From NCBI GenBank assembly GCA_027858345.1, contig JAQICX010000119.1:1-48963 (forward strand): 48,963 nt of DNA, read 5' to 3'. A program made the position numbers and the translations under genes. The notes under the pieces were generated by a model. The model was not told where the DNA came from and did no database searches. It saw only the letters and a program-made list of their open reading frames with translations. Positions 13,101 through 42,360 of the stretch are shown in pieces (position 1 is the stretch's first letter; each line of letters starts with the position of its first letter). This DNA comes from Kiritimatiellia bacterium. GTDB lineage: Bacteria > Verrucomicrobiota > Kiritimatiellia > JAQICX01.

Positions 13101-13271
13101 CCACCGAAAAATCAAACATGAATTTCAACTATTGATTTTTCAAATCCTTTTTTTTTGACGATGAGGACATCGTCGCTCCCATTTTCCAAGACCGCGGTTG
13201 TTTGTATGCCGGGAGTCCCGGTCTGCGGGATCCTCGTTGTCATAGCTATAGTCAACCAAAAAATCAAGAAC
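13101..13271 (+). repeat. Dispersed repeat family A/B (B-type), copy B1
   Basis: The right end is 'gtcaaccaaaaaatcaag' (13252-13269). The left end 'ttgatttttcaaat' is near 13132, with an extra family end 'ccaccgaaaaatcaa' at 13101. Inside, 'gacgatgagga' and 'tcgctcccatt' flank a tiny insert, and 'gggagtcccggtctgcggga' plus 'tcctcgttgtcata' (13211-13244) match copies near 25618 and 42299. It lies in the promoter region of the GH172 gene. Confidence 0.8.
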
Positions 13272-13354
13272 AAGAGTCTTGTATTGCAAAAGATGTTTGA
13301 CTTGCGTGCTTGTATTTATTAAAGTTCCGAAAATATTAATTAAGGAGTCTAGAT

Positions 13355-14506
13355 ATGTTTGATGGTTTAATGTGTAATATGAGTAATTTAGCCCGTTTGT
13401 CTAATGCCAAGAGTCGTTCGATATGCGGAGAGAATCGTAGCGGAGCAAAATCAGGTGGTGCTCGTGAGTTTCCCCCTGTAGATGAAAATGGTAATCCGAC
13501 TGGTTGTGCTAGAGACTTAGGGCAGGGTTGGAAAGTTCATCCATGTGATGATATTAAGATTGGTGAAACTTTTGTTCTGGCAGATATTGAAGGATCTGGC
13601 TGTATACAGCATATTTGGATGACCCCAACCGGTGATTACCGTACAACAATCCTTAGAATTTATTATGATGGTTCAGATATACCAGCAGTAGAGTGTCCTA
13701 TCGGCGATTTTTTTGCATCAGCTTTCACAAGTTATAGTACTTATGCAAATATCAGTTCTCAGGCTGTTTGTGTGAATCCAGGTAATGCATTTAACTGTTA
13801 TTGGCCAATGCCTTTTAAAAAGAGAATTTTAATCACACTCGAAAACGTTAGTGAACTTGAAATTAAAGGAATTTTTTATCAAATTGATTATGCTTTAAAT
13901 GATGTACCTGAAGATACTGCATATTTTCATGCACAATTTCGCAGAGTTAACCCACTCAAAAAAGGTGATGTTTATACTATTGCAGATAACATAAAAGGTA
14001 AGGGACACTACGTTGGAACTTATCTTGCCTGGCAGATTAATAATAATGGTTGGTGGGGTGAAGGTGAAATCAAGTTTTATATGGATGGCGACTGTGATCC
14101 GGCATTGAGCGATGGCAAAGAAGTTGCAGGTTCAACAGGATTCCCTACAATATGTGGAACTGGTACTGAAGACTATTTTTGTGGCTCATATAATTTTGAG
14201 AATAAGGCGACCAAAGAGTATCAGGAATATACAAATGCATATGCAGGTGTTCCTCACATTATGCGTCCAAATTCAGGGAATATGTATGATGCAAATTTGC
14301 GTTTCAGCATGTATCGCTGGCATATTACAGACCCAATTCGCTTTGAAAAAGATCTTAAGGTTACGATTCAGGCTATGGGCTGGCAACGTGGTGGCAGATA
14401 TTTGCCTTTGCAGGACGATATTGCTTCGGTTGCTTTCTGGTATCAGATTGGTCAGACTGAGCCTTTCCCTGAATTACCTTGTGCTGATGATCTGATGATC
14501 AATTAA
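13355..14506 (+). CDS. GH172 (DUF2961) glycoside hydrolase, cytoplasmic
   Basis: A 383-residue DUF2961 protein, now family GH172. Characterised members are difructose-anhydride I synthase/hydrolase and exo-alpha-D-arabinofuranosidases, so a furanoside (fructose or arabinose) is the expected substrate. The conserved core is present, including 'WWGEGEIKFYMDGD' and 'CGTGTEDYF' (268-275), where Glu272 is a candidate catalytic residue. There is no signal peptide, so it acts inside the cell. The ATG at 13355 follows 'taaggag' and matches the family N-terminus ('MFDGL...NLARLS...SRS'). It stands alone on the plus strand. Confidence 0.92.
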   Translation: MFDGLMCNMSNLARLSNAKSRSICGENRSGAKSGGAREFPPVDENGNPTGCARDLGQGWKVHPCDDIKIGETFVLADIEGSGCIQHIWMTPTGDYRTTILRIYYDGSDIPAVECPIGDFFASAFTSYSTYANISSQAVCVNPGNAFNCYWPMPFKKRILITLENVSELEIKGIFYQIDYALNDVPEDTAYFHAQFRRVNPLKKGDVYTIADNIKGKGHYVGTYLAWQINNNGWWGEGEIKFYMDGDCDPALSDGKEVAGSTGFPTICGTGTEDYFCGSYNFENKATKEYQEYTNAYAGVPHIMRPNSGNMYDANLRFSMYRWHITDPIRFEKDLKVTIQAMGWQRGGRYLPLQDDIASVAFWYQIGQTEPFPELPCADDLMIN

Positions 14507-14904
14507 GGTCAGGTGAATATTTATGAGGTCTGGTGGTGTGACCACAACACCAGTATCTGATAAAGCCCGGCATCACTGGACATAAAAGCAACTGATGTCG
14601 ACCTAATCAATCAATTTTTGCAGGCTCTGACTAGGGCGTACATGCCACACTGATTATCACGGATAATAAAATCTAGGACTCATGACTCTAGACTAAAGAA
14701 AAAATCCATTAGAGAATCGAATTCCACCTTTCTATTGTTCAACGTATGACCTGTCGCACCGTCTTGTCGAGCCGTGGTTTCGACAGCGTCCTGCATAGTT
14801 AGCAGAACGAAGAAGGAAGTTATTAGGATGTGTCAAATATAGGACAAGAATTTAATGAAACAAAATATGTTTGTAAGTCATGTGCAGATGAAAAAAGCTA
14901 AAGG
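14507..14904. other. Gene-free stretch downstream of GH172
   Basis: No gene is supported. A hairpin with arms ctggtg/caccag (14528-14551) lies 22 bp after the GH172 stop and may act as a weak terminator, though it lacks a T-run. The segment 14755-14800 has several short inverted words (tcgagccgtggtttcgaca). It could be repeat debris, and nothing marks it clearly as an RNA gene. Confidence 0.4.
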
Positions 14905-15816
14905 TTATTTTTTGTTTTCTTCTTTTCTGAATAGGCGTTTGCGGAGTAGGTGTAGTTTGACCATTTCAGGAGCAAGAAAGTCAACACTTCTGAGCTCTTT
15001 CATATTTATTTTGCAATGTCGATCCGCAAGATAGTATTGAAGTAGAATATCTCTTACCTGCTTTTTAACTACACTTGCATTCTTCTTCCCCACAAGGTTG
15101 TTGAAATTTATTATGCAGTTAAGTACTTTCTGTATGTTTCGGCAGTAGTTATCAGCCTGACTCTTGTTCATTATAGAAGTTTCGTTATCTCTTAGATAAT
15201 AGTAATAACCTTTATCGTTGTAATAAATCTTTAGCGCATAAAACATTGCTTTATAGTTAAAAAGAAGATCTTCTCCAATATAGATATCTGGAGCAAAATA
15301 TATGTGATTATTAATAATTAGTTCTGTTCTATATAGTTTGTTCCAAACAACGGCATTCTTGTTCAGGATTATGTTGCTGAAAAACAGCTCTTTTGGCTCA
15401 TCAAGCATTTTGATGTTATAATCAATTTCTATTTCTGCTTTAACCTGTTTTGTTTTGCCAATGACAATGTGTGCATCCTTTGTAACAGCGGTGTGAACTA
15501 AATTTTCAATCCAATCATTTGATATATAGTCATCACTATCAACAAAGGTTATATACTCACCAGTTACTTTTCTAAGTGCATTGTTTCTGGATATGGATAC
15601 CTGTCGGTTGCTTGTGTTATGGAAATAGAAGAATCTTTCATCTGTTTTGATAAAATCATGTATGATTTTTTCAGTATTATCAGTTGAACAATCATCAATG
15701 ATAATAACCTCAAGATTTCGGTATGATGAGTTGGCAATACTCTCCAGCGACTGCAACACAAATTCCTGTGCATTGTAAACCGGCATGATTATACTGACTT
15801 TTTTATTACTATTCAT
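14905..15816 (-). CDS. Family 2 glycosyltransferase
   Basis: A 303-residue GT-A fold glycosyltransferase, probably adding a sugar to a surface polysaccharide or lipid-linked glycan at the inner face of the membrane. The N-terminus 'VSIIMPVYNAQEFVLQSLES' and the acidic motifs 'IIIDDCSTDNT' (DD41-42) and 'FVDSDDY' (DSDD 93-96) are standard for GT2. The basic C-terminal tail (LLRKRLFRKEENKK) suggests peripheral membrane contact. It follows the O-antigen ligase/polymerase gene by 11 bp on the same strand. The donor and acceptor sugars are not known. Confidence 0.9.
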   Translation of the reverse strand: MNSNKKVSIIMPVYNAQEFVLQSLESIANSSYRNLEVIIIDDCSTDNTEKIIHDFIKTDERFFYFHNTSNRQVSISRNNALRKVTGEYITFVDSDDYISNDWIENLVHTAVTKDAHIVIGKTKQVKAEIEIDYNIKMLDEPKELFFSNIILNKNAVVWNKLYRTELIINNHIYFAPDIYIGEDLLFNYKAMFYALKIYYNDKGYYYYLRDNETSIMNKSQADNYCRNIQKVLNCIINFNNLVGKKNASVVKKQVRDILLQYYLADRHCKINMKELRSVDFLAPEMVKLHLLRKRLFRKEENKK

Positions 15817-15827
15817 ACGTTATATCT

Positions 15828-17036
15828 CTAATTTTGAATTGCAAGGTTATCTTTTTTACTTTGGGATAGGCACAAACCTATTAACAAGTATACATAAACA
15901 TATCCAACTCTTTCAAATAAATAAACTTCAAAAATGTTATGAAATTCAAATGCAATGAACAAGTATAATATGAATGCGCCAATTATACTCTTTCTGTTTT
16001 TTATTAACAACCATAATAATGAAATTTTGAATATTAGCCATGTTATTATTCCTACTATTCCGGTTTCGGCAAGCATACAAAGAAATTCATTGTGTGCGTG
16101 CCAAAATGCCCACTCATACTCTTTGTTCTTAAGATCAATATGATCTTTATTAAATCTTTTGTAGCCGACTCCATTGATGGGGTTTTCTTTAAAAACTTCA
16201 ACGGCTCTTTTCCATATGCATAATCTTCCTCTATTGCTTCCCTGTGTCTTGTCAAATATACTGGTAACACGATCTGTAGTAGTTTTCACCAAATCCTTGT
16301 TAGTAAAAAATACAATTGCAGATATCGCAACAATAGCTGCCAGTATTAACGGTAACCACTTAATTATTCGTGTTTTTAGCTCTAGAATTACTATCACTGG
16401 GGTTAATGCTGCAAATGTTAAATATGACCCTCGAACCTGTTGGATGGCAATTAGGTATAGATAAAAAACTATATTTATTGTAGAAAGAAACTGTATCAGT
16501 TTACCTTTTGATTTGAGCAGGAGTGTGAGAAAAAATACGTATCCTGAGAACGCTATAAGTGATGAATTCATAAAAAAATTGGAAAAGCAGTACTCTCTTT
16601 CCGAGTAGCCGCTAACAATCGGGAATGCATTGATTCTAATCAAACCATATATTGCTAATGCACCAAACAAAATAATAAAGTAGTTCTTTAGCTCTTTTAT
16701 GGGTTTGTATTGATACATTAAAATAGGCAATGATATTATGCGTGCTACACGTAAACAATTTTTGAAGATTCGTGTATTACCTTCGTCAACAGCGCTAATA
16801 AACAGTCCTGCCATTGCAATACAGAAAACAATCTCTAAACCACTTTTCTTATAGCCATCTTTTGTGACTTTGAGGATTGCCAATATGAGATAGAAAAAGA
16901 AAATTTCATTGATAAGCACTGGAGATATGATAAAGAATGGCAGTATCACAAAGGTAGCCCATTTGTATATTAGGTCAAAGTTTATCTTATCCAATATAGT
17001 TATAAATTTTTCTTTTATCATATTACGACAATCCAT
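15828..17036 (-). CDS. O-antigen ligase/polymerase (Wzy/WaaL-type) membrane protein
   Basis: A multi-pass inner-membrane protein of about 400 residues with the Wzy_C/O-antigen ligase pattern: many hydrophobic segments, 'QQVRGSYLTF', and the periplasmic stretch 'GSNRGRLCIWKRAVEVF' followed by 'PINGVGYKRF' and 'HAHNEFLCMLAETG'. It would ligate or polymerise lipid-linked polysaccharide. A TTG at 17069 extends the frame, but ATG 17036 or 17021 is more natural; neither has a strong ribosome-binding site. It sits upstream of a GT2 gene, so this pair is a small surface-glycan unit. Confidence 0.85.
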   Translation of the reverse strand: MDCRNMIKEKFITILDKINFDLIYKWATFVILPFFIISPVLINEIFFFYLILAILKVTKDGYKKSGLEIVFCIAMAGLFISAVDEGNTRIFKNCLRVARIISLPILMYQYKPIKELKNYFIILFGALAIYGLIRINAFPIVSGYSEREYCFSNFFMNSSLIAFSGYVFFLTLLLKSKGKLIQFLSTINIVFYLYLIAIQQVRGSYLTFAALTPVIVILELKTRIIKWLPLILAAIVAISAIVFFTNKDLVKTTTDRVTSIFDKTQGSNRGRLCIWKRAVEVFKENPINGVGYKRFNKDHIDLKNKEYEWAFWHAHNEFLCMLAETGIVGIITWLIFKISLLWLLIKNRKSIIGAFILYLFIAFEFHNIFEVYLFERVGYVYVYLLIGLCLSQSKKDNLAIQN

Positions 17037-17110
17037 TGTTATAATTTCAGCGAAGTTTAGCAAAACCAAATTACATGGTCAAGAGGCAATCAATTCTTCC
17101 AACTTAAACT

Positions 17111-17350
17111 CTTGATTTTTCGGTTGAATGCCCTTTTCGGCGGGGGCACGGACCCCGACCCTACAATTGTTGGAGCAGAAAACAACACTAACTTGTTGAT
17201 TGCAGGTGTCTTCTGTAGGGTCGAGGTCCTTGACCTCGCCTTTAAAATGTTTTTTTCAAAAGTATCACCCAAAAACGAGAAAAGCAAAAACTCATTCCCT
17301 GATTTTATTGACTTAAACGCACGTATTTATCTCCAAGCGAAAAATTAAGG
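17111..17350 (+). mobile_element. Repeat family A, copy A1 (MITE-like, 240 bp)
   Basis: The ends are inverted: cttgatttttcggttgaat (17111-17129) and 'ccaagcgaaaaattaagg' (17333-17350). Inside are 'cacggaccccgaccctaca' and, further on, 'tgtagggtcgaggtccttg', two hairpin-capable blocks facing each other, then 'agtatcaccc'. The same order occurs on the opposite strand at 37790-38026. A frame runs through it, but it is made of repeat sequence and is not called as a gene. No transposase is present. Confidence 0.85.
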
Positions 17351-17351
17351 A

Positions 17352-17558
17352 CTTAAACCCTTGATTTTTCGGTTGTATTCTTTTTTTTGTTTAAATTTTG
17401 GAAAGCCATTCTTACCAAAACAAGTCACCTGCGTGACAGCAAGAAAAAACTTCAATACCAGCACATCTTTCATCCCGCCTTGCGGGACTGATAAGTCCAG
17501 CTGCAGAATAAGGTGTACACTTGTACTATCTTACTGCTTCCCAAGCAAACTCAACAAT
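17352..17558. repeat. Partial family A end and repeat debris
   Basis: A second copy of the family A left end, with the same preceding bases (cttaaacccttgatttttcg, from 17352), directly follows copy A1. The segment 17379-17425, containing 'ttggaaagccattcttacc', matches the reverse strand near 41998-42020. A short hairpin 'cccgccttgcggg' lies at 17474-17486. No gene is present. Confidence 0.65.
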
Positions 17559-18071
17559 TTAGTCTGAGTATTTAATTTGTTTTATATTTTTTATGTATAT
17601 TCTTGGTTTGTTGTCTGTTTTACCAATTCCAACACTACCGCTTAATACGTTGATTTTATCACCTTGATTCGGCACATCTGATTCTAAAATTGATAGCTTA
17701 GGCTTAGGTGAATACGCAATCCTGATTTCATCTTTTCCATCTTTTAGAATAAATGAAAAATATTCAATATATCCATCTTTGTTTGAATCAGCAACTTTAT
17801 ATGGATTTGTTTTGATAGTTCCTTCAACACTGATTGTTGCGTAATTCATCATTTTTGTGATTGAACCTATCGGGGTGAAACGATCTTCTTGAAAAACTGC
17901 ATACATTGTTAAATATACGATTCCGAGAATTGCAGTTGCAACAGCAAGAGATAACATTAACATTCTTGCTTTGAAATTTCTAGTTTTGATTTCACAAAAG
18001 GGACACACTAACTCTGTCCCGATAAAACGATCACAGACAGGACAATTAGATGTGTCTTTTTTGCTAGTCAT
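17559..18071 (-). CDS. Membrane protein with N-terminal zinc ribbon and C-terminal OB-like domain
   Basis: A 170-residue protein. A four-cysteine zinc ribbon (CPVC...CPFC, Cys10/13/23/26) is followed by one transmembrane segment (about 37-60) and a soluble region of short beta strands ending 'PRIYIKNIKQIKYSD'. The soluble part reads like a small OB-fold, but that is inferred. ATG 18071, with ggagag upstream, is preferred over an ATG at 18089. The 5' end overlaps the upstream CBS-domain gene by 8 bp, making it the last gene of a four-gene unit. Its function is unknown. Confidence 0.75.
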   Translation of the reverse strand: MTSKKDTSNCPVCDRFIGTELVCPFCEIKTRNFKARMLMLSLAVATAILGIVYLTMYAVFQEDRFTPIGSITKMMNYATISVEGTIKTNPYKVADSNKDGYIEYFSFILKDGKDEIRIAYSPKPKLSILESDVPNQGDKINVLSGSVGIGKTDNKPRIYIKNIKQIKYSD

Positions 18072-19044
18072 CTTCAATCTCTCCAACAATTTCTTCCAGA
18101 ATGTTTTCGGTTGTTATAAGTCCTATCACCTTATCATTATCATCCTTAACCAAGCACATCGGCTGTTTATACAGTCTAAGGCGAGGGAAAATCTCATCAA
18201 CTGCCATATACTCTGGAATGTACAAAGGTCTTCGAATGAATTCTGATATAGTTTTTTCCTGCATAGGCTTTTTGTCTGCTAAAACATAAAAGACATTAAT
18301 GATTCCAATATAATCATCTGTTTTTTTGTTATATACCGGAAATCTTGTGAAACCTGACTCTTTTGCTTTTTCATAAAATTCATGAATTGATGCATCTTTG
18401 GCAATACTTACAATCTCTTCACAAGGAATCATAATATCTTTTGCCTCTTTTGATGATAGTTCAAAAACTTTATGAATCATTTCAGTTTCTTCAGATGATA
18501 AAGAACCTGTTAGCTCTCCTTCCGATGCAAGTCTTTTTAGCTCTTCTTTTGATTTGAAAAGTGCAGATGGTGCTAAGTGTTTTTCAGGACCTTTTACTAT
18601 CCAGCTCGTTAGCCATAGGATCATTTTTGAAAATGGATATATAGCTATTGCAAAAACATAAAGAGGTTTAATAAGTCTTAAACACCTCTCAGCTGGTTTT
18701 GCACTGAACCAGGCTTTTGGAGTGTATTCGCACATTATAAGAATAATAATGGTCATTAATACCGATGATATGGATTCGGATAATGCTTTGTTTTGTCCAC
18801 TAAATAACTTTAGCATTAAATTTGATGCTAAGACAGTCGCCGAGACAACAGATATATTGTTTCCAATAAGTGTTGCTCCTAAAAGTTTGTCTGTATTGCT
18901 GCGGAACATATCTAAAAGGTCTGCGTTTTTTACACCTTCATTCTTCAAATGTTTAACTCTATTGAGCGGTATTGATATTATGCCTGTCTCTATCCCTGAA
19001 AAGAAAGCTGAGGCAACCAGAAAAAGTAATATTGAAAAAATCAT
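18064..19044 (-). CDS. DUF21/CBS-domain membrane protein (CNNM/CorC family), short form
   Basis: A 326-residue relative of the CNNM/HlyC/CorC divalent-cation transporters. Residues 1-180 form the DUF21 membrane domain ('FFSGIETGIISIPLNRVKHL', 'IGNNISVVSATVLASNL'). Residues 195-320 are a CBS pair ('DIMIPCEEIVSI', 'VIGLITTENILEEIVGEIEDD'). It lacks the C-terminal CorC_HlyC domain found in its upstream neighbour, with which it overlaps by 4 bp. Known relatives export Mg or Co; the ion here is inferred. The two adjacent forms may work as a heteromer. Confidence 0.88.
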   Translation of the reverse strand: MIFSILLFLVASAFFSGIETGIISIPLNRVKHLKNEGVKNADLLDMFRSNTDKLLGATLIGNNISVVSATVLASNLMLKLFSGQNKALSESISSVLMTIIILIMCEYTPKAWFSAKPAERCLRLIKPLYVFAIAIYPFSKMILWLTSWIVKGPEKHLAPSALFKSKEELKRLASEGELTGSLSSEETEMIHKVFELSSKEAKDIMIPCEEIVSIAKDASIHEFYEKAKESGFTRFPVYNKKTDDYIGIINVFYVLADKKPMQEKTISEFIRRPLYIPEYMAVDEIFPRLRLYKQPMCLVKDDNDKVIGLITTENILEEIVGEIEDD

Positions 19045-20303: not shown

Positions 20304-21049
20304 TCATCAACCTCGACAATCGAATTTATCTTTATTTTTGTTCTATGAATAACAGGGAATGATTCAGCTTCAAGGTCTTTTACTGTAAAACCACCATCGA
20401 TTTTTTTGATACTCTTAATCCATATTGTTCTCTTTAGTGAATCATCTGCATCATACTCTTCAAATCGCATTAGGGCACTATTCTTTTCAGCAACCCAAAT
20501 CTTATAATGAACTGTATCGCGAAATTTTGTTGGATAAAGCTTTATAATTGAGGTTTGAAGCCCAAGAACAGTATCTGAATCAACATATACAGCATTTGTC
20601 CATTTTAGGAATTGCATGCTCAAATTTTCCCAGGTGATATCTGAGCCAAGGATAGGGGAGTCTAGCGGTGGAGGTTCAACCTCTTTTGCTGGTTGCCCTT
20701 TTCTGAAAATTGTTTTTGGGATGCCGTTAGTCTCTAAAGTTGTCTCCAAGGACATGAACGATTTTGTTTCAGGCACGAAAAATGAGTATTTTGCACTAGG
20801 TGTTGTGTCATTGATGTCAACTATTGCGTTGAAATCATACTTGTGAGAGATAAATCCCTTTTTATTTTTAATTAAAAGAGCACCGTCCATCTCCAGTGGT
20901 TTTTCAGGAAACTGTGCTAATGCATTTTGGAGTATGATGTTGGGATTGTTATTCGGCTGCGGAGGTTCATCTGAGTCAGCACTAACTAAGTCTGTGCCAA
21001 AAACAGATGCAATTGCAAATATAATTGTAGCTTTAATAAATGTTTTCAC
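20300..21049 (-). CDS. LolA-like outer-membrane lipoprotein-sorting protein
   Basis: A 249-residue exported protein. The N-terminus (MKTFIKATIIFAIASVFG...) is a signal peptide. The remainder fits the COG2834 LolA/LolB-like fold: 'ILGSDITWENLSMQFLKW', then 'YKIWVAEKNSALMRFEEYD', and 'RTIWIKSIKKIDGGFTVKDL'. Members of this group are periplasmic and may bind lipid or lipoprotein. This is not the canonical LolA. It heads the four-gene unit with the two DUF21/CBS proteins, overlapping the next gene by 4 bp, so a role in envelope homeostasis is possible. Confidence 0.8.
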   Translation of the reverse strand: MKTFIKATIIFAIASVFGTDLVSADSDEPPQPNNNPNIILQNALAQFPEKPLEMDGALLIKNKKGFISHKYDFNAIVDINDTTPSAKYSFFVPETKSFMSLETTLETNGIPKTIFRKGQPAKEVEPPPLDSPILGSDITWENLSMQFLKWTNAVYVDSDTVLGLQTSIIKLYPTKFRDTVHYKIWVAEKNSALMRFEEYDADDSLKRTIWIKSIKKIDGGFTVKDLEAESFPVIHRTKIKINSIVEVDE

Positions 21050-21110
21050 GTAATATAGAGGTTATGTCTATTTGAATGCACACAACCTAAAATCCTTTAT
21101 CTTGTTGGTT

Positions 21111-21353: not shown

Positions 21354-21398
21354 GTCATTTTCTCCGTTCTCTTATTTCCCGTATTTCCTGGGGCATTC

Positions 21399-21600: not shown

Positions 21601-21801
21601 TTAAACTGTACTCAAAAGCATGCAGGTCTATTGTTTTAGCATAAAACCTTATTTAAAAATAGGTTGTGAATTGAACAGGATGCCCTACCTATGCCAAGTT
21701 TCTCCAATGTTAGCGTATATTATTATCGAATTCAACACTTATATTGAAAAAAGGGGTAAAATCATTGATTTTTTTTTCACTCTAAACGAAAATAGAGCAA
21801 T

Positions 21802-25522: not shown

Positions 25523-25677
25523 TGGGTGATAAATTAAAAAATATTTTATTATGACAATGAAGATCCCGCAGGGCGGGATCGCTCCCATTTTACAGTACAA
25601 CGGTTTTTTGCAAGTTTGGGAGTCCCGGAATGCGGGATCCTCGTTGTCATAACTACGTTCAATCGAAAAATTAAGAG
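25523..25677 (+). repeat. Repeat family A/B (B-type), copy B2
   Basis: The left part 'gggtgataaattaaaaaata' leads to 'ttattatgacaatgaagatc'. A hairpin cccgcagggcggg fills the slot before 'tcgctcccatt'. The conserved right arm 'gggagtcccggaatgcggga' plus 'tcctcgttgtcataa' (25618-25652) is followed by the end 'caatcgaaaaattaagagg'. The slot insert differs in B1 and B3. It lies between nfeD2 and floA. Confidence 0.85.
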
Positions 25678-25829: not shown

Positions 25830-26897
25830 ATGAATTACATTACATTGGCGGCGGCGGCACAGAATTTGAAAGTTGGAGTTGGAATTGTATTACTTATTTT
25901 CTTAATTGTAATCATTGGTGTTGTGCTGAAGTTTGCTGGAGTCTGGGTTAGAGCCTTTATGGCTGGAGCAGGTGTTTCGTTGTTTCAATTAGTTAGAATG
26001 ACGCTGATCAGAATTCCACCATTATTAATTGTTGACGCAAGAATTAGTCTAATAAAAGCTGGTCTTAGTGTTCCTGTTAACGATATGGAATCTCATTACT
26101 TAGCTGGTGGCGATGTAACAAATGTTGCAAGAGCCTTGATTGCTGCTGATAAGGCAAACATTGAACTATCTTTTGAGAGAGCTCAGGCAATTGACCTTGC
26201 TGGTAGAGATGTTGAAGAGGCTGTTAGAACTAGTGTTCAACCAAAAGTGATTAACTGTCCAGGTGAAAACCAAAGTAATACAGGTATGCTGGATGCGGTT
26301 GCTAAGGATGGTATTAGACTTTTAGTAAAAGCTAGAGTTACTGTTAGAGCAAATCTGGAGCGTCTTGTTGGTGGTGCTGGTGAAGAAACTATCATTGCTC
26401 GTGTTGGACAAGGAATTGTTAGTGCAATCGGTTCTGCACCTTCATATAAGGATGTTTTGGAAAATCCAGATAAGATAAGTCTGAAGGTACTTAATAGTGG
26501 TTTGGATTCACAAACAGGTTTTGAAATTGTTTCAATTGATATTGCAGATATAAGTGTTGCAGGCGTATCCGCTGTTTCAAACGTTGGTGCCCAACTTGAA
26601 ACCGAACGAGCTGAAGCCGATAAGAAGATGCGTCAGGCAGAAGCTGAAGGTCGCAGAGCTATGGCTGTTGCTTTTGAACAGGAGATGCGTGCAAGAGTTC
26701 AGGAAATGCGGGCAAAGGTTCAAGAGATGCAGGCAAAGGTTACTGAAGCTAAGGCAGAAGTGCCAAAGGCAATTGCAGACGCATTCCGTAAAGGCAATTT
26801 AGGTATTATGGACTACTATAGGTTAAACAACATTGAGTCAGATACTGAAATGAGAAAATCAATTGCTGGTACGGATGACAATCAGGAAGACAACTAA
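25830..26897 (+). CDS. floA: Flotillin-like protein FloA
   Basis: A 355-residue FloA/YqfA. It has an N-terminal membrane hairpin (about 12-65), an SPFH/band 7-like domain, and a long coiled coil near 250-315 ('[20 protein letters not shown]', '[19 protein letters not shown]'). It ends with the family signature '[20 protein letters not shown]'. FloA scaffolds functional membrane microdomains and works with NfeD proteins, encoded just upstream. The family is very conserved, so the call is firm. Ribosome-binding site aaaggt lies at 25815. Confidence 0.96.
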
Positions 26898-28928: not shown

Positions 28929-29593
28929 TTCGTTAGATAGTTAGACCGTTCCATGCGTCGCTTCCCTATGCAGGACACAGTAGACAGGGTAGAACTGTGG
29001 TGTTTGTACTTTTTGTTAAAAGAACATCGAATCCACGCTTTGCGGGACTAGCAAAGCTAGCACATTCAACGTCGAATATCGAATGAAATACACTGCTCAC
29101 AGCAGGTACAAGCGTTGCTTGTTTATTAACTCCAGGGCGCTGCCCTGGGCTATGTTATTGCGGGCTGTCAGCCCTGTGCTTCCGTCGGTCAGTGCCCGAC
29201 GCTACAGGTGTTGTATTTGCAAACCGCATTAGTCCGCCAAAGCTCCTCCCCGGCTAGCTTTGCTAGTCCCGCTCTGCGGGAGGAGGTGTCCGAGGAACGA
29301 GGACGGAGGGGTTCTTCATTTAATATTGGATGTTGGACGTTCGATGTTGGACGTTCTTAATCCATTTGTCTTTTTCTTTGCGTTCTCTTGCCTGTCGCGC
29401 CGTAGTCAGCTTGCTGCGAAGGAGGATGTCTCCGTGCGATTAAACTTTTTTCGTGGTTAATCACTTCTCTCATCAAACATTAATACTTAATCATTGACCA
29501 TTATTCTCTTCCACCTTGCAATGCGTTTGATAGTGTTGTATAATTGGCAAAATTTAAGAGATGAGACAGATGATATTTTGAAGGGAATATAAT
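28929..29593. repeat. Intergenic repeat composite (families I, GTCGGTCA, short tandem arrays)
   Basis: No gene is supported. Contents: a gttagac array fragment (28929-28950), starting at the GT9 stop; words 'tgcgggactagcaaagctag' (29042-29061); the GTCGGTCA repeat (29160-29224), also at 23211; family I copy 2 on the minus strand (29230-29318), sharing arms with 969-1102; and an array of 'gatgttggacgttc' units (29328-29357). The rnhC ribosome-binding site (gaaggga) closes the stretch. Confidence 0.7.
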
Positions 29594-30598: not shown

Positions 30599-30958
30599 AT
30601 GGTTAATTGTAAATTAGTTAGACAGTTAGTCAGTTAGACAGTAAACAGGGCACTCCGTGGGGTGGATTTAATGGTTAATGTTGGAATGCCTGGAATAGTT
30701 CTAGGGGCTAAGTTGCTTCCTGCTGGAGCGTATCGGAGACAGGCTTTTGAACAGCAGTTGCGGCGGTTTGGGTCACCTCGGGGCTTGCCCCCGTGGAGCC
30801 ATGATTGGCAATGCCATAGGCAATAACGAAGAGCAGAGCTCTTAACCTACTTACGGTAGTGTGTTTTGGTACAAAACAATTTGCGTTCAAGGCTCACGCA
30901 GTGAGCAAACATAGAACATAGACCATAGAACCTAGAACGTTTTAAGAGAGAAAGATTT
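30599..30958. repeat. Intergenic short tandem arrays
   Basis: A gttagac-type array (30615-30646) starts just after the rnhC stop and runs into 'cagtaaacagggcactccgt', which recurs at 32010-32029. A GC-rich inverted word ggggcttgcccc lies at 30780-30791. A catagaa-type array (30909-30938) follows. No gene is seen. Confidence 0.65.
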
Positions 30959-31984
30959 ATGAATACAGATTTGATAATTGTTGGTGGTGGTGCGGCAGGG
31001 CTGATGGCAGCTTCTTATGCAAGTGAGATTGGTTTACGCTGTCTGCTTGTTGAAGCCAGACATTTGCCGGGGAGAAAACTACTTTTATGTGGTAACAACA
31101 AATGCAATCTAACATCAAACATACCAACTTCTGAATTTATTCGTTCATACAACAGCAGTGCTGCTGAATTTCTTGAGTTGGCTTTGAATTCTTTTGGTCC
31201 TGATGAGCTACGAAAGTGGTTCTCAAAACACGGATTGCAGACTTTTGTTGAAAAAGATGGCAGGGTTTATCCAAAGAGCCGTAACGCCGATGATGTTTTG
31301 CATGTGTTTACTGATATAATAAGAGAAAAAAGTGTTCCGGTGGTATACAACTGCAGAGTCGACTCAATGCGCAGGAAAAACAAAATGTATGAAGTTGGCA
31401 ATGAACATGTGACATTTTATGCTCCAAATGTTTTGATTGCAACTGGTGGTGTTAGCTATCCAAAAACAGGTTCTGTTGGTGACGGACAAAAAATGGTTAA
31501 ATCATTCGGGCACAAGCTTGTGCCGTATCAGCCCGGACTTGTGGGATTTGAATTTGATGGAAATGTTAAACATATTCCACTTGCAAATGTTGAGATTGTC
31601 AGTGATGGCAAGGTTGTTGGTATGACAACTGGTGATATATACCCAGAACGTTGGGGGGCTAGGGGAAAGGCTTTGACAAATGCAAGTAGTATTGTTGCTC
31701 AGCAGCAATTGAAAAATTATCATTTTAATGTGGTTCCAATCAATAGTAATATAAAGGGTTTTAAGCTGCACCCTAAAAAGACCAGACCTTTGAAAGAGGC
31801 AATGGTTACTGTTGGTGGTGTGGCTCTTCAAGATATCAACACCCAGACAATGGAATCAAAAAAATGTCCAGGCCTGTATTTTGCTGGAGAAGTGATGGAT
31901 GTTGATGGTCCAACTGGTGGATTCAATCTGACCGCAGCCTGGGCAACCGCCAGATTGGCTGTTGATTCAATTAATAATAGTTAA
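30959..31984 (+). CDS. HI0933/YhiN-family FAD-dependent oxidoreductase, compact form
   Basis: A 341-residue flavoprotein. It has an N-terminal FAD Rossmann motif 'IIVGGGAAGLMAASYASEIG', then 'GRKLLLCGNNKCNLTS', 'LIATGGVSYPKTGSVGDG', and the C-terminal family signature 'GLYFAGEVMDVDGPTGGFNL'. Usual members have about 390-420 residues. Here the inserted middle domain is shortened: the usual 'LFTHxGxSGP' block is missing near residues 220-260. The reading frame is intact and the ends are normal, so it may be functional. The substrate is unknown. The stop runs into a gttagac array. Confidence 0.88.
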   Translation: MNTDLIIVGGGAAGLMAASYASEIGLRCLLVEARHLPGRKLLLCGNNKCNLTSNIPTSEFIRSYNSSAAEFLELALNSFGPDELRKWFSKHGLQTFVEKDGRVYPKSRNADDVLHVFTDIIREKSVPVVYNCRVDSMRRKNKMYEVGNEHVTFYAPNVLIATGGVSYPKTGSVGDGQKMVKSFGHKLVPYQPGLVGFEFDGNVKHIPLANVEIVSDGKVVGMTTGDIYPERWGARGKALTNASSIVAQQQLKNYHFNVVPINSNIKGFKLHPKKTRPLKEAMVTVGGVALQDINTQTMESKKCPGLYFAGEVMDVDGPTGGFNLTAAWATARLAVDSINNS

Positions 31985-32296
31985 TTAGTTAGATTGTTAG
32001 ACCGTTAGACAGTAAACAGGGCACTCCGTGGGATGGAATGGTGAATTAGTTAGACCGTAAGACAGTTAGTCAGTAAGACAGGAAGACAGGACACTCCCGC
32101 CTTCGCAGCAAGCTGACTACTTCGGACAGACCGTGGGAGTAAGAGTTTTTGTAGGGTTAGAGCATTATAAAACCGACCTTAAGGACTTTAATGACCTTAA
32201 AGTCTTTAATGATCAGGGTGAAAGTAGAGAGTCGTGCGTCAAAACTTGGATACCGTTTCACGGTTTGTAGTATTGATTAATTTGAAAGGGAATGAA
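31985..32296. repeat. Intergenic gttagac-type array
   Basis: The array at 31987-32088 has degenerate 7-bp units (gttagac, cagttagt, taagacag) and encloses 'cagtaaacagggcactccgt' (32010-32029), shared with 30639. A region with 'aaggactttaatgaccttaa' and 'agtctttaatga' follows (32180-32211). No gene is seen. The polymerase ribosome-binding site (aaaggga) lies at 32285-32291. Confidence 0.65.
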
Positions 32297-34522: not shown

Positions 34523-34557
34523 TGCAGGTATTTAGCGCTGTTTTAGAGCTCTTAACC

Positions 34558-36387: not shown

Positions 36388-36487
36388 TTTATTATTTCCT
36401 TTTCTTGTTTTTTATATTAGCATATTATAGTTTATTAACGAAAAACTAACAATAGAAAAAAACGTATATAAAGTGAGAAAATCGGAC
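36388..36487. promoter_or_regulatory. Divergent promoter region of GH127 and its AraC regulator
   Basis: A 100-bp A/T-rich region is shared by the divergent GH127 and AraC-type genes. The GH127 ribosome-binding site (aaaggaaa) is on the minus strand at about 36398-36405. Binding sites for the AraC protein are expected here. I do not see an obvious operator. Confidence 0.5.
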
Positions 36488-37279
36488 ATGCTGACTATTG
36501 ATTCATTAATTGAAATTGACTATATATCATCTGGGTTATTTTCTTCACAATATATTTGGAGACATCCAGCTAGAATTATTGATAGCTATGAAATTATTCT
36601 GGTGACAGCAGGCACTGTCTATTTGCAGGTAGGTGATGATAGATATCAGTTGCAGAGTGGTGACATAGTTGTTTTGAAACCAGATGTTTTACACCGTGGA
36701 TATGCTGATACAAAGGAGAAGGTCGAGTTCTACTGGCTCCACTTCAAAACTAATAATTTTTCATTACTCAGTATTTGTGACCGTTTACATTTAGAAAATT
36801 CTTATAAATGTATAAACCTGTTCAAGCAATTACTTCATACAGCAAATACACCTGGTTATAGTTCAAGAACAGCCGAACTGTACACAGCGCTAATAATTGA
36901 TGAATTAGCTTTTGCATGTAAAAACGGTGATAACTCTGGTTCCAGTTTGGCAAAACAGACGGCAGAATGGGTCAGGATTAATAGTGATAAGAATATATCT
37001 GTTCTAGAAGTTGCTAATCATTTTAAGTACAATGAAAATTATATAAGTAAATTATTCAAAAAGACATTTGAATGTGGACTGAAGTCATATATAAATGACA
37101 AGAAAATAGAGTATGCAAAGAATCTACTAACAAGTACCAATTACTCTGTAAAGCAGATTGCACATATGATGAGTTATGATGATGCAAACCTGTTCATAAA
37201 ATTTTTTAAATATCACGAACAGGTTAGTCCAACTGAGTATCGTAATACATACTGTAACACTCATATGAATAACAGGTGA
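36488..37279 (+). CDS. AraC-family transcriptional regulator
   Basis: A 263-residue regulator. The N-terminal half is a cupin-like sugar-sensing domain ('SYEIILVTAGTVYLQVGDDR', 'QLQSGDIVVLKPDVLHRGY'). The C-terminal half is the double helix-turn-helix of AraC ('ISVLEVANHFKYNENYISKL', 'SVKQIAHMMSYDDANLFIKF'). It most likely controls the divergent GH127 gene and perhaps the GH42 and beta-helix genes in response to an arabinose- or galactose-type sugar. A GTG at 36473 in the same frame is an alternative start. Confidence 0.9.
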   Translation: MLTIDSLIEIDYISSGLFSSQYIWRHPARIIDSYEIILVTAGTVYLQVGDDRYQLQSGDIVVLKPDVLHRGYADTKEKVEFYWLHFKTNNFSLLSICDRLHLENSYKCINLFKQLLHTANTPGYSSRTAELYTALIIDELAFACKNGDNSGSSLAKQTAEWVRINSDKNISVLEVANHFKYNENYISKLFKKTFECGLKSYINDKKIEYAKNLLTSTNYSVKQIAHMMSYDDANLFIKFFKYHEQVSPTEYRNTYCNTHMNNR

Positions 37280-37467
37280 ACTCAATAAAAATGAAAAAAA
37301 GCATGTCTGCCCAGAGTGCGGGACGGAGATACTTCTTCCGAAATAGCACCGTCTGATGCAGAACAACGGGAGCCTCGCAAGCTCGGCACCGTGACGCCGG
37401 ACGTTGGACAAAGAAGATGAAAAGACTGATTTCAAAAATACAGCCAGAAGAATGCAACACGTGGTAA
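37280..37467. other. Gene-free stretch before the hydrolase relic
   Basis: There is no gene. It has a more GC-rich middle with inverted words 'ggagcctcgcaagctcgg' (37369-37386). Its composition differs from the flanking genes, and it may be repeat debris joined to the relic that follows. Confidence 0.4.
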
Positions 37468-37701
37468 CTCAAAGTGGGCAATATTGCACCTCTGGCCGAA
37501 CATAATGTGCCAATATTGCATGTTTATGGAGATGCTGATGAGGTTGTTCCATGGGAGGAAAACACCGGGGTTGTTGCCGAACGATATAAAGCTTTGGGAG
37601 GAAGTGTCGAACTAATTTCAAAGCCTGGAGTAGGCCATCATCCACATGGATTAGATGCCCCCTCACCAATAGTCGATTTTATTATGCAGCATACACTTTA
37701 G
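37468..37701 (+). pseudogene. Alpha/beta-hydrolase C-terminal fragment
   Basis: About 75 residues reading 'NIAPLAEHNVPILHVYGDAD', 'EVVPWEENTGVVAERYKALG' and 'SKPGVGHHPHGLDAPSPIVD'. This is the C-terminal third of an alpha/beta-hydrolase, with the acid (Asp in GDAD) and the catalytic histidine in 'GVGHHPHG'. The nucleophile half is missing. An in-frame stop (37465-37467) lies directly upstream, so only this piece is left. Its family is often found among glycan-degrading genes in this phylum. Confidence 0.8.
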
Positions 37702-37789
37702 TGGCAAATCTAAAATGGGGCTTCCGTTCATACATCAAAAATACGTCTGAAAATTGCAAAAGCGAAAGCCGAACCGCATATTCGTAGCC

Positions 37790-38026
37790 CTTAATTTTTC
37801 GGTTGGACAAGAAAATATCTGTTTGAGCCAACAAAATCAAGGAATTAGGTGCTACTTTTTGCTTTTTCAGGTGATACTTATGAAAATTTTATTTAAAAGT
37901 CGGGGTGAAGCACCCCGACCCTACAAAATAACTGCGAATCAACCTTTTAGCTTTGATTGCAGCATCCGCAACTGTAGGGTCGGGGTCCGTGACCCGCCAA
38001 AAAGGATATTCAACCGAAAAATCTAG
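37790..38026 (-). mobile_element. Repeat family A, copy A2 (MITE-like, 237 bp)
   Basis: The ends are ccttaatttttcggttgga (37789-37807) and 'ttcaaccgaaaaatctagg' (38009-38027). Inside are 'gtcggggtgaagcaccccga' with 'ccctaca', and 'tgtagggtcggggtccgtga' with 'cccgcc'. It is the reverse-oriented relative of A1 (17111-17350), matching over most of its length. It lies between the hydrolase relic and the beta-helix gene. Confidence 0.88.
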
Positions 38027-38172
38027 GTTCGTAGCTTTGCTGGGCATTTTGTTGCTGATTAAATACTAATAATTTATTATTATATATCCTTTGCATGTAA
38101 TTCGATATATGATGTAGTCGTTGGCAAACTAATAATTTATTTTAATAATATGAATGTAAGGAACAATAATTA

Positions 38173-38298
38173 ATGAAACCTGAATATGATACCAGTAAAC
38201 CTGTCGAGAAATTTGTTGATGAAGGAGATTCTAACATCTGGATTGCTCCGCATGCACGTATGAGTGAACCTTTAGTTTATACACATTGTCATGAATAG
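38173..38298 (+). CDS. Short 41-residue open frame overlapping the beta-helix gene
   Basis: A 41-codon frame (MKPEYDTSKPVEKFVDEGDS...) with a ribosome-binding site (taagga, about 38157-38162). Its last codons overlap the start of the 1157-residue gene by 8 bp (atgaatag), as in translational coupling. It matches nothing I recognise. It may be a leader peptide, or the start of a lost gene. Its ending 'PLVYTHCHE' resembles the cupin entry of AraC-type proteins, but that is weak. Confidence 0.4.
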   Translation: MKPEYDTSKPVEKFVDEGDSNIWIAPHARMSEPLVYTHCHE

Positions 38299-41200
38299 AT
38301 TCATTAAAACTATATTGCCAGGATTTCTTTTTGTCTTAATCATCAACTGCTGTTTGGCAGATATGAATCTGATTTCCATGGACAAATGGAGTCGAATGAG
38401 AGATGCCTTGGTCAGAGATCCTTCCTGTCACCGTTTTTATTCCTTTAAGACAGATGGAGGGTCTTATCTGGATCTGACAGGTAAAGGTACAAAGAATATG
38501 TACTATGCTTCGTCGGACAAGGGCGTTTTAAAAATGGGTTCAGGTCGTATTGACGGAGTGGAATCCGTCAGTCTTGATGAAGATGTTTTGCTTGCTGATC
38601 GCTATGGTGACACGAATGGTGCATTTTCTGTTTCTGTCTGGATAAGACCGTATGGTATTGGCAGGCGTCAGGTAAATGATAACTTTTCAGGCATGATCAC
38701 CAGTAGTGGTACCGGCTATTATGATGGTTGGCGATTGGTGATTTTTGATACGGCAAGATTTATGCCGACGTTTGAAATTGGAATAGGAGAACGCTCTATC
38801 GGGCTTACATCAAAGCGTCCATTATGTCTTGGGTTCTGGAATAGTGTTGTTGCAACCTGGGATAAGCAGGAAATGCGAATATACATAAATGGGTATTTGG
38901 GAGCATCAAAAAAATTTTCAGGTCCAAGAGTTCCTGCCAAAGGTGATCTTAATGTCGGATTCAGGCATTATGGGGTCGGTTCTTTAAAAATGGATGCAGA
39001 TGAAATAGCCATATTCAACAGGGCTCTGACCTCAAAAGAAGTTGTGGAAATTAGCCTGCTTGAAAAAATTAAGATTTCAGACCAGGATTGGGAAACAGTA
39101 GAGAATATACAGTTAACTGACACGCCAGAAGCATTTGTAACCCAGCTTAAAAATATAATCAGTTCTCAGGGGAATAATCAGCAGTTTAAACTTTGGCTTG
39201 AAATTCTGTTAGTAGAAAAACAGCTGACACAGGGAGCTTTTGCAGATATTGTTGATAAAATTGCTCAGTTATATCAGAGTTCTGATGCTCCACCTAATTT
39301 GCAGGGAGAGCTCTGCGTCGATATTCTAAATTATCTTTCTTATGAAGATGTGATGCTGCCTGCCGACATTTTAAGACAGATAATCAGTTCCATAAAGCTT
39401 AGTGGTAAAGATAAACTTATATGTTATGAAGCATTGGCCCGCAGTTATGTTGCCTCCAAAAACAAAACAGGAGTTAAGGATGCTTTCGAGAAGCTTCTTC
39501 TGGAAAAAGATCTGCCTGTTTCTGAAGCAGATGTTCGCCTTAAATATGCAATGTATTTAACTCAGTCAGGCTTGATCGATTCAGCTGCAGAGCAATACGA
39601 TATTGTTGCAAGTCAGACTGAAAGTGTAAATTTAAAAGTTGTTGCAATGATTTCTAAAGCTGCAATGTTGAAAGACGGTGGAAGGTATGAAAGTGCGATT
39701 GCGACTTGTGAGACAGTCCTCGGAATCGATGGGGTGATGTTATATCATAAGATGGAGGCTGAAGAGCTTAAAGAGCAGTGCCTGAGTCTTAAAAATGGAA
39801 AGCAGATTACTGAATTTAATGCCGATCTTCCGGATCTTCCTGAAACAGAACTTACTCTGTTTCTGGCTACGGATGGCGATGATGAAAATAGCGGAACAAT
39901 TGAAAAGCCTTTTGCAACTCTTGATAAAGCCAGAGATGTGCTGAGAGAGTATCGCCGAAAATATGGTTCTCTTCCCAAAGGTGGAGTCAGGGTGTATCTG
40001 CGTGGTGGAACATATAAGATGGACTCATCTTTTGTGCTTGGCAAAGAAGATTCAGGCACAACTGATGCACCTGTTGTTTTTTCGGCGTATAAGAATGAAA
40101 CGCCTGTTTTAACAGGAGGTTTCAAAGTTAAGGATCTCAAGAAAGTTGACGATGAAATTTTGGCAAGATTGCGACCTGAAGCCCGTGGTAAAGTTTATCA
40201 GGCAGATTTAAAAGAACAGGGAATTAGAACTCTGTTTCGCCAGCAGGGGTATGGTTTCGGTATTGGAAACAGCAAAATTCTTTCTGTCTATGAAAACGGA
40301 GAATTTCTGCAGCTTGCAAGGTGGCCAAATGAAGAGTCTGTTTTTGTTGATAAAGTTTTTGATGACGACAATTGTACCTTTGGGTTTAATAATTCAAGGG
40401 TTGAAAACTGGAAAAATGCAAATGAATTGTTTGTCAACGGGTTCTGGTATCATCTGTGGGCGGAAATGGCTTTACCTGTTAAAAGTATTGATGTGGTTAA
40501 CAATTCTGTCACAGTTGAGACTTTTCCTCAATATGGCTTTAAGAGTGGACGTCCATTCTACTTTATGAATCTACTTGAGGAAATAGATCAGCCCGGGGAG
40601 TGGTATATAGATACAGAGAACGGCATTTTATACATTTGGCCTAAATATAAACCTATGACAAAAGAAATTGTGGTGACAGAACTTGATAAAGTAATTTTTG
40701 AAGCTGTTGGAGTACGCAATCTGATTGTTGAGGGGATTGATTTTAAATATACTCAGGGAGAGGCCATTCTTTGGGTTAACTGTTCAGACTCGGCAATAAT
40801 AGGCTGCTCTTTCAAAGGAATAGGTGCAACAGCCTTAAAAGTTTTAGACTGCCGAAAAGTGAAAATCTTCGGTAATAGCATGAGGGAACTGAATCATGGA
40901 GGTATGCATGTTAGCGGAGGAGACAGAAAAACACTTGAATCTTCAGACATTGTTGTTGAGAATAATGATGTGGGATATTTCGGTCTGTCAACCAAAACCT
41001 ATGTTCCCGCTGTTCTGATGGAAGGTGTCGGTATAAAAGTTTCTCACAACTATTTTCATCATGCTCCATCAAGTGCTATTCGTGTTGAGGGCAACAATCA
41101 TCTGATAGAATATAACTTTGTGGAATTTGTTGTTCAGAAGTCAGATGATCAGGGAGGTATAGATATATGGGGCGATGCATCATATCGCGGTTGCATAATG

Positions 41201-41764
41201 CGGTATAATTACTGGAAAGATATTTATGGTTCAGATATTCCGTGCGGGGTGGCTGGAATCAGACTTGATGATGCAATATCCGGAATGTTTATTTTCGGTA
41301 ATATATTTGAACGGACATCACGAGCTAATTTCGGAGGGGTACAGATTCATGGTGGACACATGAACTATGTGGAAAACAATCTCTTTGTTGACTGCCGATA
41401 TGCGGTAAGCTTTTCACCATGGGATATGAAACGCTTCAACAATTATGTGAACAATGATATTGCATACAAACTTTATAAAAACGTTGATATAGAAAAACCA
41501 CCATATAGCACAAGCTATCCTACTCTTATGTACCTAAAAGATCCTGAAAAACATAACTTTAATACTGTCTGGTGTAATATTATAAAGGGTGCAGAAAAAC
41601 CATGGAACAATGCTCCCAAAAACACTGATTTTTTGAACAATCTTGAGTATATAAAGTTTGACGTTAAGGATGCGGCCAGGAATATTGGAACATTCAGAGC
41701 CATTCCAGTTGATAAAATCGGCACATATAAGCATGATAGAAAAGCTAGAGCATTGAACAAATGA
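38291..41764 (+). CDS. Secreted LamG/right-handed beta-helix multidomain protein (GH141-like)
   Basis: An 1157-residue exported protein. A signal peptide (1-24) is followed by a LamG/concanavalin-like domain (about 90-255, 'AFSVSVWIRPYG', 'DADEIAIFNRALTSKEV'), an alpha-helical TPR-like middle (about 290-500), and a long beta-helix domain from 525 ('LFLATDGDDENSGTIEKPFA', 'GGVRVYLRGGTYKM') with right-handed coils to about 1130. The beta-helix opening and the 'RWPNEESVFVDKVF' and 'WYIDTENGILYIWP' motifs resemble GH141-type enzymes (fucosidase/xylanase). Catalytic residues are not assigned. It is likely in the periplasm or outside the cell, acting on complex glycans. Confidence 0.85.
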   Translation: MNRFIKTILPGFLFVLIINCCLADMNLISMDKWSRMRDALVRDPSCHRFYSFKTDGGSYLDLTGKGTKNMYYASSDKGVLKMGSGRIDGVESVSLDEDVLLADRYGDTNGAFSVSVWIRPYGIGRRQVNDNFSGMITSSGTGYYDGWRLVIFDTARFMPTFEIGIGERSIGLTSKRPLCLGFWNSVVATWDKQEMRIYINGYLGASKKFSGPRVPAKGDLNVGFRHYGVGSLKMDADEIAIFNRALTSKEVVEISLLEKIKISDQDWETVENIQLTDTPEAFVTQLKNIISSQGNNQQFKLWLEILLVEKQLTQGAFADIVDKIAQLYQSSDAPPNLQGELCVDILNYLSYEDVMLPADILRQIISSIKLSGKDKLICYEALARSYVASKNKTGVKDAFEKLLLEKDLPVSEADVRLKYAMYLTQSGLIDSAAEQYDIVASQTESVNLKVVAMISKAAMLKDGGRYESAIATCETVLGIDGVMLYHKMEAEELKEQCLSLKNGKQITEFNADLPDLPETELTLFLATDGDDENSGTIEKPFATLDKARDVLREYRRKYGSLPKGGVRVYLRGGTYKMDSSFVLGKEDSGTTDAPVVFSAYKNETPVLTGGFKVKDLKKVDDEILARLRPEARGKVYQADLKEQGIRTLFRQQGYGFGIGNSKILSVYENGEFLQLARWPNEESVFVDKVFDDDNCTFGFNNSRVENWKNANELFVNGFWYHLWAEMALPVKSIDVVNNSVTVETFPQYGFKSGRPFYFMNLLEEIDQPGEWYIDTENGILYIWPKYKPMTKEIVVTELDKVIFEAVGVRNLIVEGIDFKYTQGEAILWVNCSDSAIIGCSFKGIGATALKVLDCRKVKIFGNSMRELNHGGMHVSGGDRKTLESSDIVVENNDVGYFGLSTKTYVPAVLMEGVGIKVSHNYFHHAPSSAIRVEGNNHLIEYNFVEFVVQKSDDQGGIDIWGDASYRGCIMRYNYWKDIYGSDIPCGVAGIRLDDAISGMFIFGNIFERTSRANFGGVQIHGGHMNYVENNLFVDCRYAVSFSPWDMKRFNNYVNNDIAYKLYKNVDIEKPPYSTSYPTLMYLKDPEKHNFNTVWCNIIKGAEKPWNNAPKNTDFLNNLEYIKFDVKDAARNIGTFRAIPVDKIGTYKHDRKARALNK

Positions 41765-42056
41765 AACGCTGTAAAGATTTTATTCGAGGACGACGTTGGG
41801 CTTTAAAAAAAATCAAGTAATAGCAAGCCTATTGCGTATTTTTTTGAAAGATTCAACGGAAGCCGCAGGACAAAGATTTACTGCGTTTCATGAGCGAAAT
41901 TCTCTAAATAGGACTTCCTGTTTAATGCATGCTTCCTTAGGCTTCTTTCTTAATGAGAAAAATAGAAAGGAGCAACGAACAAAGTGAGTGGCAAAAATGG
42001 CTTTCCAAACTTAACTAAAAAAGATTATATAACTGTAAAATTAAGGTGTTTTAAAA
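41765..42056. other. Gene-free stretch after the beta-helix gene
   Basis: No recognisable gene is present. A 19-codon frame rich in Lys and Arg begins at the stop of the previous gene (41761) and is not called. The segment 41985-42020 (containing 'aatggctttccaaactta') is the reverse of one at 17379-17425 next to A1. Confidence 0.45.
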
Positions 42057-42360
42057 ATACCTTAGTTTTTAGGTTGGAGCAGATAACATGCGTTTGAGCT
42101 AATAGAATTAGCAGAAAATACATCTTTTTATCACCCAATGGGTGATAAGTAAAAGAAATAGTTTATTATGACAATGAGGAATAGGCCATTCACTACGTTA
42201 ATTGCTTTAGCCTATTGTTTGTTATGAGTGGCTAATGCCCCTCTCTCAAGTTCGAGTGTCGCTCCCATTCCAACAAGACAATATTAATCTGCAAGTTTGG
42301 GAGTCCCGGAATGCGGGATCCTCGTTCTCATAAAGTGTCTCAACCGAAAAATTGAGGGTG
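42057..42360 (+). mobile_element. Repeat family A/B (B-type), copy B3, with nested module E
   Basis: The left end 'ccttagtttttaggttgga' (42059-42077), followed by bases like those of A2 ('gtttgagctaatagaatta'), and the right end 'tcaaccgaaaaattgagg' (42341-42358) are inverted. Between them are 'gggtgataa', 'ttattatgacaatgagga', module E (42181-42258), 'tcgctcccatt', and the conserved arm 'gggagtcccggaatgcggga' plus 'tcctcgtt'. This copy joins the A-type left end to the B-type core, so A and B are one family with exchangeable interiors. Confidence 0.85.
42181..42258 (+). repeat. Module E, copy 2 (nested in family B)
   Basis: This segment contains 'ataggccattcactacgtta', 'attgctttagcctattgttt' and 'gttatgagtggctaatgccc'. 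It is the inverse of 22991-23072, nested there in family C. It fills the slot that holds a short hairpin in copies B1 and B2. Confidence 0.82.

Follow-up and report, generated by a model that had tools for sequence, protein, structure and literature searches.

The window analysed in the current work (the complete 48,963-nucleotide contig C64, JAQICX010000119.1, of a draft Kiritimatiellia bacterium genome, so that the window end is the contig end) carries a series of short repeats, for which the original prediction had proposed six copies of one family with fixed ends and interchangeable hairpin interiors. All six copies were found by direct reading at the predicted positions or within a few bases of them, each stretch carrying paired terminal inverted repeats (TIRs) or the surviving TIR of a pair; the left TIR is missing from the copies at 13131-13271 and 25523-25677. 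Four further TIR ends, marked as additional in Table 1, had not been listed previously. The genome is a 4,033,302-base draft of 256 contigs with a completeness of 90.6%, and no other member of its family is present among the genomes compared.

The ends of the repeats are TIRs of 17 bp (CCTTAATTTTTCGGTTG ... CAACCGAAAAATTAAGG), which are nearly identical throughout. A genome-wide search with the end sequence, as the original prediction had proposed, recovered copies far beyond chance, with 478 matches at up to two mismatches versus a single match for the same pattern read backwards (reversed control), while with one mismatch allowed 343 matches were obtained here versus 0 or 1 in each of the 345 other genomes of the class. 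The elements were surveyed on a sample of 1,643,385 bases (1.64 Mb), which is non-random and favours contigs with matches; only the whole-genome TIR count can be extrapolated, the other sample densities being biased to match-bearing contigs. This sample contains 456 TIRs (with up to four mismatches), which form 117 facing pairs within 700 bp versus five divergent pairs. Exact target-site duplications flank these pairs with a length of 7 bp (n=21), 8 bp (n=13), 9 bp (n=1) or 10 bp (n=1), meaning that 36 of the 117 elements possess a duplication of at least 7 bp, as compared with 0.49 expected when the flanks are re-paired at random. The elements are mostly 125-400 bp long and without coding capacity, and the midpoint of 116/117 falls outside open reading frames (ORFs) of at least 150 codons, even though such ORFs make up 75% of the sample. 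Based on the paired TIRs and the exact target-site duplications, the repeats are therefore a lineage-specific family of miniature inverted-repeat transposable elements (MITEs), essentially confined to this Kiritimatiellia-like genome, and the proposal that a single family combines constant ends with exchangeable interiors was borne out. No match to the exact core pattern was found in 85k genomes, viral contigs or plasmids, and none of the window's elements reached the gathering threshold of an Rfam family.

A typical element consists of a left module of ~90 bp, followed by a core, a short tail and the right TIR. The left module holds GTTTGAGTCAATAAAAT and GGTGATAAA, and exists in two variants, only one of which contains a TTATCACC...GGTGATAA palindrome. 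Within this single backbone at least eight core types were recognised in the sample and the window, including type I (ACCCCGACCCTACA), type II (GACGATGAGGAC/GTCCTCGTTGTC), type III (CGGCGGTC...), type IV (GTAGAGTCCGATC...), type V (GTCATGCGTGCATGAC...), type VII (CACGGATAAACACGG..., in which no pair of repetitive extragenic palindromes (REPs) was recognised), a larger core with GGAAAGCCATTC, and the GGTCAGCGTCCCCGCTGACC type present at 48845. Both interior types distinguished in the original prediction exist, being only two of this larger number. Left modules, of either variant, are common to elements with different cores, and no association was detected between left-module variant and core I or II (18/7 and 18/11; Fisher p = 0.57).

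Most cores consist of two REP hairpins in inverted orientation, each with the GTAG/GGAG foot that is diagnostic of REPs, i.e., REP doublets forming hairpins (REPINs) or bacterial interspersed mosaic elements (BIMEs), the half-sites of which read (from 5′ to 3′) GTAG-GGTCGGGGTCCGTGACCCCGCC, GGAG-CGACAACGTCCTCGTTGTC, GTAG-CGTCGGTCGTTGACCGACG and GTAG-AGTCCGATCTGTGATCGGA. This layout of foot and hairpin is the one described for REPs (PMC3733652, PMC8266576), two inverted REPs constituting a REPIN (PMC3116915). The original statement that no described family was known holds for the ends, as far as these are searchable, but not for the interiors, which are REP doublets of this described kind. A strict search of 800 kb returned 166 REP-like hairpins and 22 inverted REP pairs, compared with 11 and none, respectively, in shuffled DNA; 12 of the 22 pairs are located inside TIR pairs. 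The two halves of native REP2 are fully complementary in 39/42 copies, six stem alleles being present with both sides changed at five of the seven stem positions, and the covariation score is 0.509, as compared with shuffles, which give 0.216, and slid structures, which do not exceed 0.156. Folding of the copies as single-stranded DNA, also suggested originally, was clearly better than that of shuffled sequence for three of the four REPIN cores tested (z -4.4 to -5.9), the fourth reaching z -2.0.

A 136-bp element (C84:49538-49673) possesses both TIRs and the left module without a REPIN, with TTAT-AA in place of the TTAT-GAC...GTC-ATAA of filled copies. Either an ancestral state or a deletion between short repeats may explain it, and no second coreless element was found when further ones were sought. 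At C31:8145-8307 and C238:17715-17800 only one hairpin of the REPIN remains, which may represent the route by which a doublet decays into a single REP.

One half of a REP hairpin (here named the “slot”) can be replaced or interrupted by other units that occur genome-wide. In REP2 the slot is bounded by the GGGAG foot and the outer TCCTC, with a native content of 8 nt, for which the alternatives are the S1 hairpin TCCCGnnnnGCGGGA, the S2 unit of ~75-80 nt ending in GAATGGCCTA, the S3 unit of ~80 nt with GTTCTCGTTCCTCGAACACC, and others. The three slot contents predicted for the window are all present, namely the native ACATCG, the hairpin TCCCGCAGGGCGGGA, and a unit of ~76 bp (given originally as about 80 bp). 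S1 was found on arms CGTTGTC (11), CGTTCTC (9), CATTGTC (6), CATTATC (3) and more, and S2 on CGTTGTC, CGTTCTC, CATTGTC, CATTGCC and more, each of these units being associated with at least six different arm sequences, while S3 is confined to arm CATCGTC (7). Therefore, the predicted independence of slot and arms applies to S1 and S2 and does not extend to S3. S2 units may themselves contain a further hairpin (C238, C16), generating nests two or three deep, the S2 copy of C16 being preceded by another unit in a three-part nest. An additional unit of ~35 nt, S5 (CTTCGC-hairpin-CTACGGCGGACA; e.g., at position 17476 of the window and in L150), is present in 81 copies in the sample and recurs at fixed points of the MITE and elsewhere. 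Positions more than 350 bp from any TIR account for 97 of 177 S1 copies and 44 of 81 S5 copies.

Table 1 Features of the repeat family in the window (contig C64).
Feature	Coordinates	Strand	Remarks
TIR, right end of CACGGATAAACACGG-type-core element	109..125	-	Additional; sequence CAACCGAAAAATTGAGG; left part beyond window start
TIR remnant and core-I-type tail	13101..13117	-	Additional; tail AAAAGGCATT; joined to left-module sequence from next copy
Core II REPIN	13157..13243	+	Native left REP 13157-13180; GGGAG foot 13211-13215; right slot with S1 hairpin TCCCGGTCTGCGGGA 13216-13230; outer arm 13231-13243
Right TIR of preceding copy	13253..13269	-	CAACCAAAAAATCAAGA
Target-site duplication, left copy	17102..17109		ACTTAAAC, exact 8 bp
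Complete MITE: left module, core I REPIN	17110..17350	-	Both TIRs; exact 8-bp duplication
Target-site duplication, right copy	17351..17358		ACTTAAAC, exact 8 bp
Left TIR of degenerate element	17359..17375	+	Additional; core with GGAAAGCCATTC; directly adjoins ACTTAAAC duplication
Core II REPIN	25553..25650	+	S1 hairpins in both slots (25564-25578, TCCCGCAGGGCGGGA; 25623-25637)
Right TIR of preceding copy	25660..25676	-	Left TIR missing; left module truncated
Target-site duplication, left copy	37781..37788		TTCGTAGC, exact 8 bp
Complete MITE: left module, core I REPIN	37789..38027	+	Both TIRs; exact 8-bp duplication
Target-site duplication, right copy	38028..38035		TTCGTAGC, exact 8 bp
TIR remnant of preceding element	42031..42046	-	Additional; AACTGTAAAATTAAGG
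Complete MITE: left module, core II REPIN	42060..42357	+	Both TIRs; GTGTTTTAAAAA direct repeat near ends
S2 unit	42181..42256	+	~76 bp, slot of left REP
S1 hairpin	42304..42318	+	TCCCGGAATGCGGGA, slot of right REP
Left part of element cut by contig end	48845..48963	+	TIR 48845-48861; GGTCAGCGTCCCCGCTGACC-type REP; start of S3-like unit

In order to locate insertions, core II elements were aligned to the native consensus, and insertions of at least 14 nt were counted (n=63). REP hairpins received 26 of these versus ~13 expected from their share of the non-TIR positions (38/184), with p = 1.6e-4, a value which treats insertions as independent events, while recurrent identical junctions show that they are not. 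The remaining insertions lie in the left module (17), the spacer (15, some of which are slot inserts displaced by the alignment) and the tail (5). The recurrent junctions are those of S2 at consensus positions 121 and 176, of S4 at left-module position 40, and of S5 at left-module position 79 and spacer position 135. A fair reading is a moderate (approximately twofold) preference for REP hairpins which is not confined to their tips. Because many copies have identical junctions, the data suggest a small number of founding insertions, followed by copying through MITE transposition and by shuffling or recombination.

Concerning the enzymes that may act on REPs, 11 Y1_Tnp matches were identified in the genome, of which two full ORFs, on C225 and C62, scored 115.5 and 108.6 bits against the NCBIfam model of the REP-associated tyrosine transposase (RAYT; cut-off 80), each lying between inverted REP pairs of its own family (REP3, REP7). 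These two families are found inside MITEs as well, yet their distribution differs from that of REP1 and REP2, the families dominant in MITE cores: TIR pairs, which represent 2% of the sample, enclose 65/100 REP1 and 34/61 REP2 copies versus 20/123 REP3 and 4/93 REP7 copies (pooled, 99/161 for REP1 and REP2 versus 24/216 for the RAYT-linked REP3 and REP7; Fisher p = 1.5e-25). A REPIN III core at C221:2601-2764 contains a REPIN belonging to the C62 RAYT family; the REP family of this RAYT and REPIN III have a common spacer, TGCAGTTTAACnGT, which may be their exchange point.

Candidate parents of the MITE were also considered. On C20, an ISAs1-like DDE transposase with a MITE TIR next to it was rejected since its own TIR differs, the copy on C26 ending in CACGGTTTTTTCTTTT inverted repeats and the MITE adjoining the C20 copy being a separate insertion. 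Elements of IS1595 (C187, C30) and IS256 (C225) were rejected on account of their ends (GGGGTATGCACTTG and GAGACCGTCCCAATTTGTGTGTC), as was ISL3, with no TIR near the match. The ORFs between distant TIR pairs, on which no family search was run, resembled ordinary host genes. The stretch on C30 (L151) looks richer in G+C by eye, its IS1595 element being nearly identical to that of C187, and is a possible contaminant or recent transfer.

We consider it likely that a MITE family has become a carrier of REPINs, with inverted REP doublets serving as core and different REP families occupying the same place. A transposase now lost, or missing from the assembly, would have moved the MITEs, while REPINs would have entered the MITE via RAYT activity, afterwards spreading with it, and recombination or conversion among hundreds of copies would have reshuffled the cores and slot inserts. 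REP hairpins, which can be open as single strands or cruciforms, may be somewhat more receptive to additional palindromic units than the rest of the element. A host function is unnecessary to explain the elements. Several points weigh against this reading: shuffling is deduced from combinations of units, roughly one TIR in two lacks a partner, and no duplication is detectable at 76 of the 117 pairs. Moreover, no autonomous element with the MITE TIR was found among DDE_Tnp_1, IS1595, IS256 and ISL3 relatives in this incomplete genome, and none of the RAYT genes found in it matches REP1 or REP2. One could, more tentatively, extend the carrier reading to a hierarchy of parasites, in which REPINs hitch-hike on the MITE and thereby spread REP families that have lost their own RAYT, extruded REP hairpins are the preferred landing sites for third-level palindromic units, and the elements evolve by repeated hairpin insertion.

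The original prediction went further in proposing insertion or conversion aimed at hairpin tips. A more explicit form of this, considered here, would involve HUH/IS200-like single-strand enzymes that repeatedly insert small palindromes into extruded REP tips and so directly create the slot diversity. The roughly twofold enrichment of insertions in REP hairpins upholds part of this proposal, and is joined by S2, which occupies almost the same point in the left and the right REP, with differing junctions and on several alleles of the arms, by inserts at one point of the left REP in core I elements, and by the RAYT/IS200-type proteins encoded in the genome. Such targeting as the direct source of diversity is nonetheless unlikely, as insertions recur in the left module and spacer, away from any REP tip, S3 resides on one arm allele only, and junctions identical across many copies fit inheritance better. 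A far smaller probability is attached to unrelated repeat families having converged on similar ends, without common backbone or exchange: absence of the left module from 30/117 elements and the cores lacking a REP pair would agree with it, but not the nearly identical 17-bp TIRs, nor the ~90-bp left modules which, in both variants, elements with different cores have in common. Just as improbable is that collapsed repeats in a draft metagenome assembly produced false mosaics, for although the assembly comprises 256 contigs, several of which end inside elements, a misjoin would not give the matching duplications of at least 7 bp, different at each locus, that accompany 36 elements, and the copies are diverged enough for assembly. 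The reading of a MITE family turned REPIN carrier remains the preferred one.

Each constituent (MITE, REPIN and modular repeat) has known counterparts. As in REPIN/BIME systems with a RAYT (PMC3116915, PMC3733652, PMC8266576), there are GTAG/GGAG-footed hairpins in inverted copies 20-60 nt apart, many families per genome and RAYT genes flanked by their own REPs, whereas here many REPINs are situated within elements that have TIRs and target duplications, and no RAYT was found in the genome for the dominant REPs. Like other bacterial MITEs (PMC10969869, a review in which the terms REPIN, nested and mosaic are not used), the elements are short, non-coding, intergenic and of high copy number, here with 17-bp TIRs and 7-8 bp duplications; they differ in having an interchangeable interior composed of mobile elements of another class, and in that the parent transposon was not found. 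BOX and other pneumococcal repeats (PMC3049150) also combine fixed end modules with variable inner ones, and BOX, RUP and SPRITE repeats are inserted in one another (PMC3049150), although BOX varies in boxB copy number, while here whole REP doublets swap families and hairpins carry further inserts. BrickBuilt of Porphyromonas gingivalis (PMC4596501) is likewise a MITE containing another kind of repeat, in this case a tandem minisatellite rather than REP doublets, in 19 copies. REPs also serve as insertion sites for other mobile DNA in the case of insertion sequences such as ISPpu9 of Pseudomonas putida (PMC8450116), which are autonomous, unlike the non-coding units of ~15-90 nt described here. 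No MITE family combining interchangeable REPIN cores with nested inserts of hairpins was found in the literature searched, which leaves most subscription journals outside.

Other features of the window include a flotillin-like protein (25830-26897), whose closest matches, at 76% identity or less, are encoded in metagenome-derived genomes of Kiritimatiellia, Lentisphaerae and Verrucomicrobia. The Acido-Lenti-1 RNA (Rfam RF01687) is present at 29131-29175 of the window, at L114:11588-11632 and at L106:6180-6224 (the last two within 140 kb of other stretches), and is thus itself a dispersed repeat in this genome; related copies without a family-level score are located at 5239 and 23208 of the window. 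Minisatellite-like AGTTAGACAGT repeats, unrelated to the MITE, lie between genes at 30604-30666 and 31975-32098.

REPINs are believed to require a RAYT encoded by their own genome. The persistence of REP1 and REP2, for which no RAYT is detectable, mainly in MITEs suggests another route of REP survival. The nested inserts constitute a natural record for testing, by comparison of strains, whether hairpin DNA attracts insertions, and the elements provide a concrete picture of how mosaics of the BIME, Neisseria intergenic mosaic element (NIME) and BOX type can arise.

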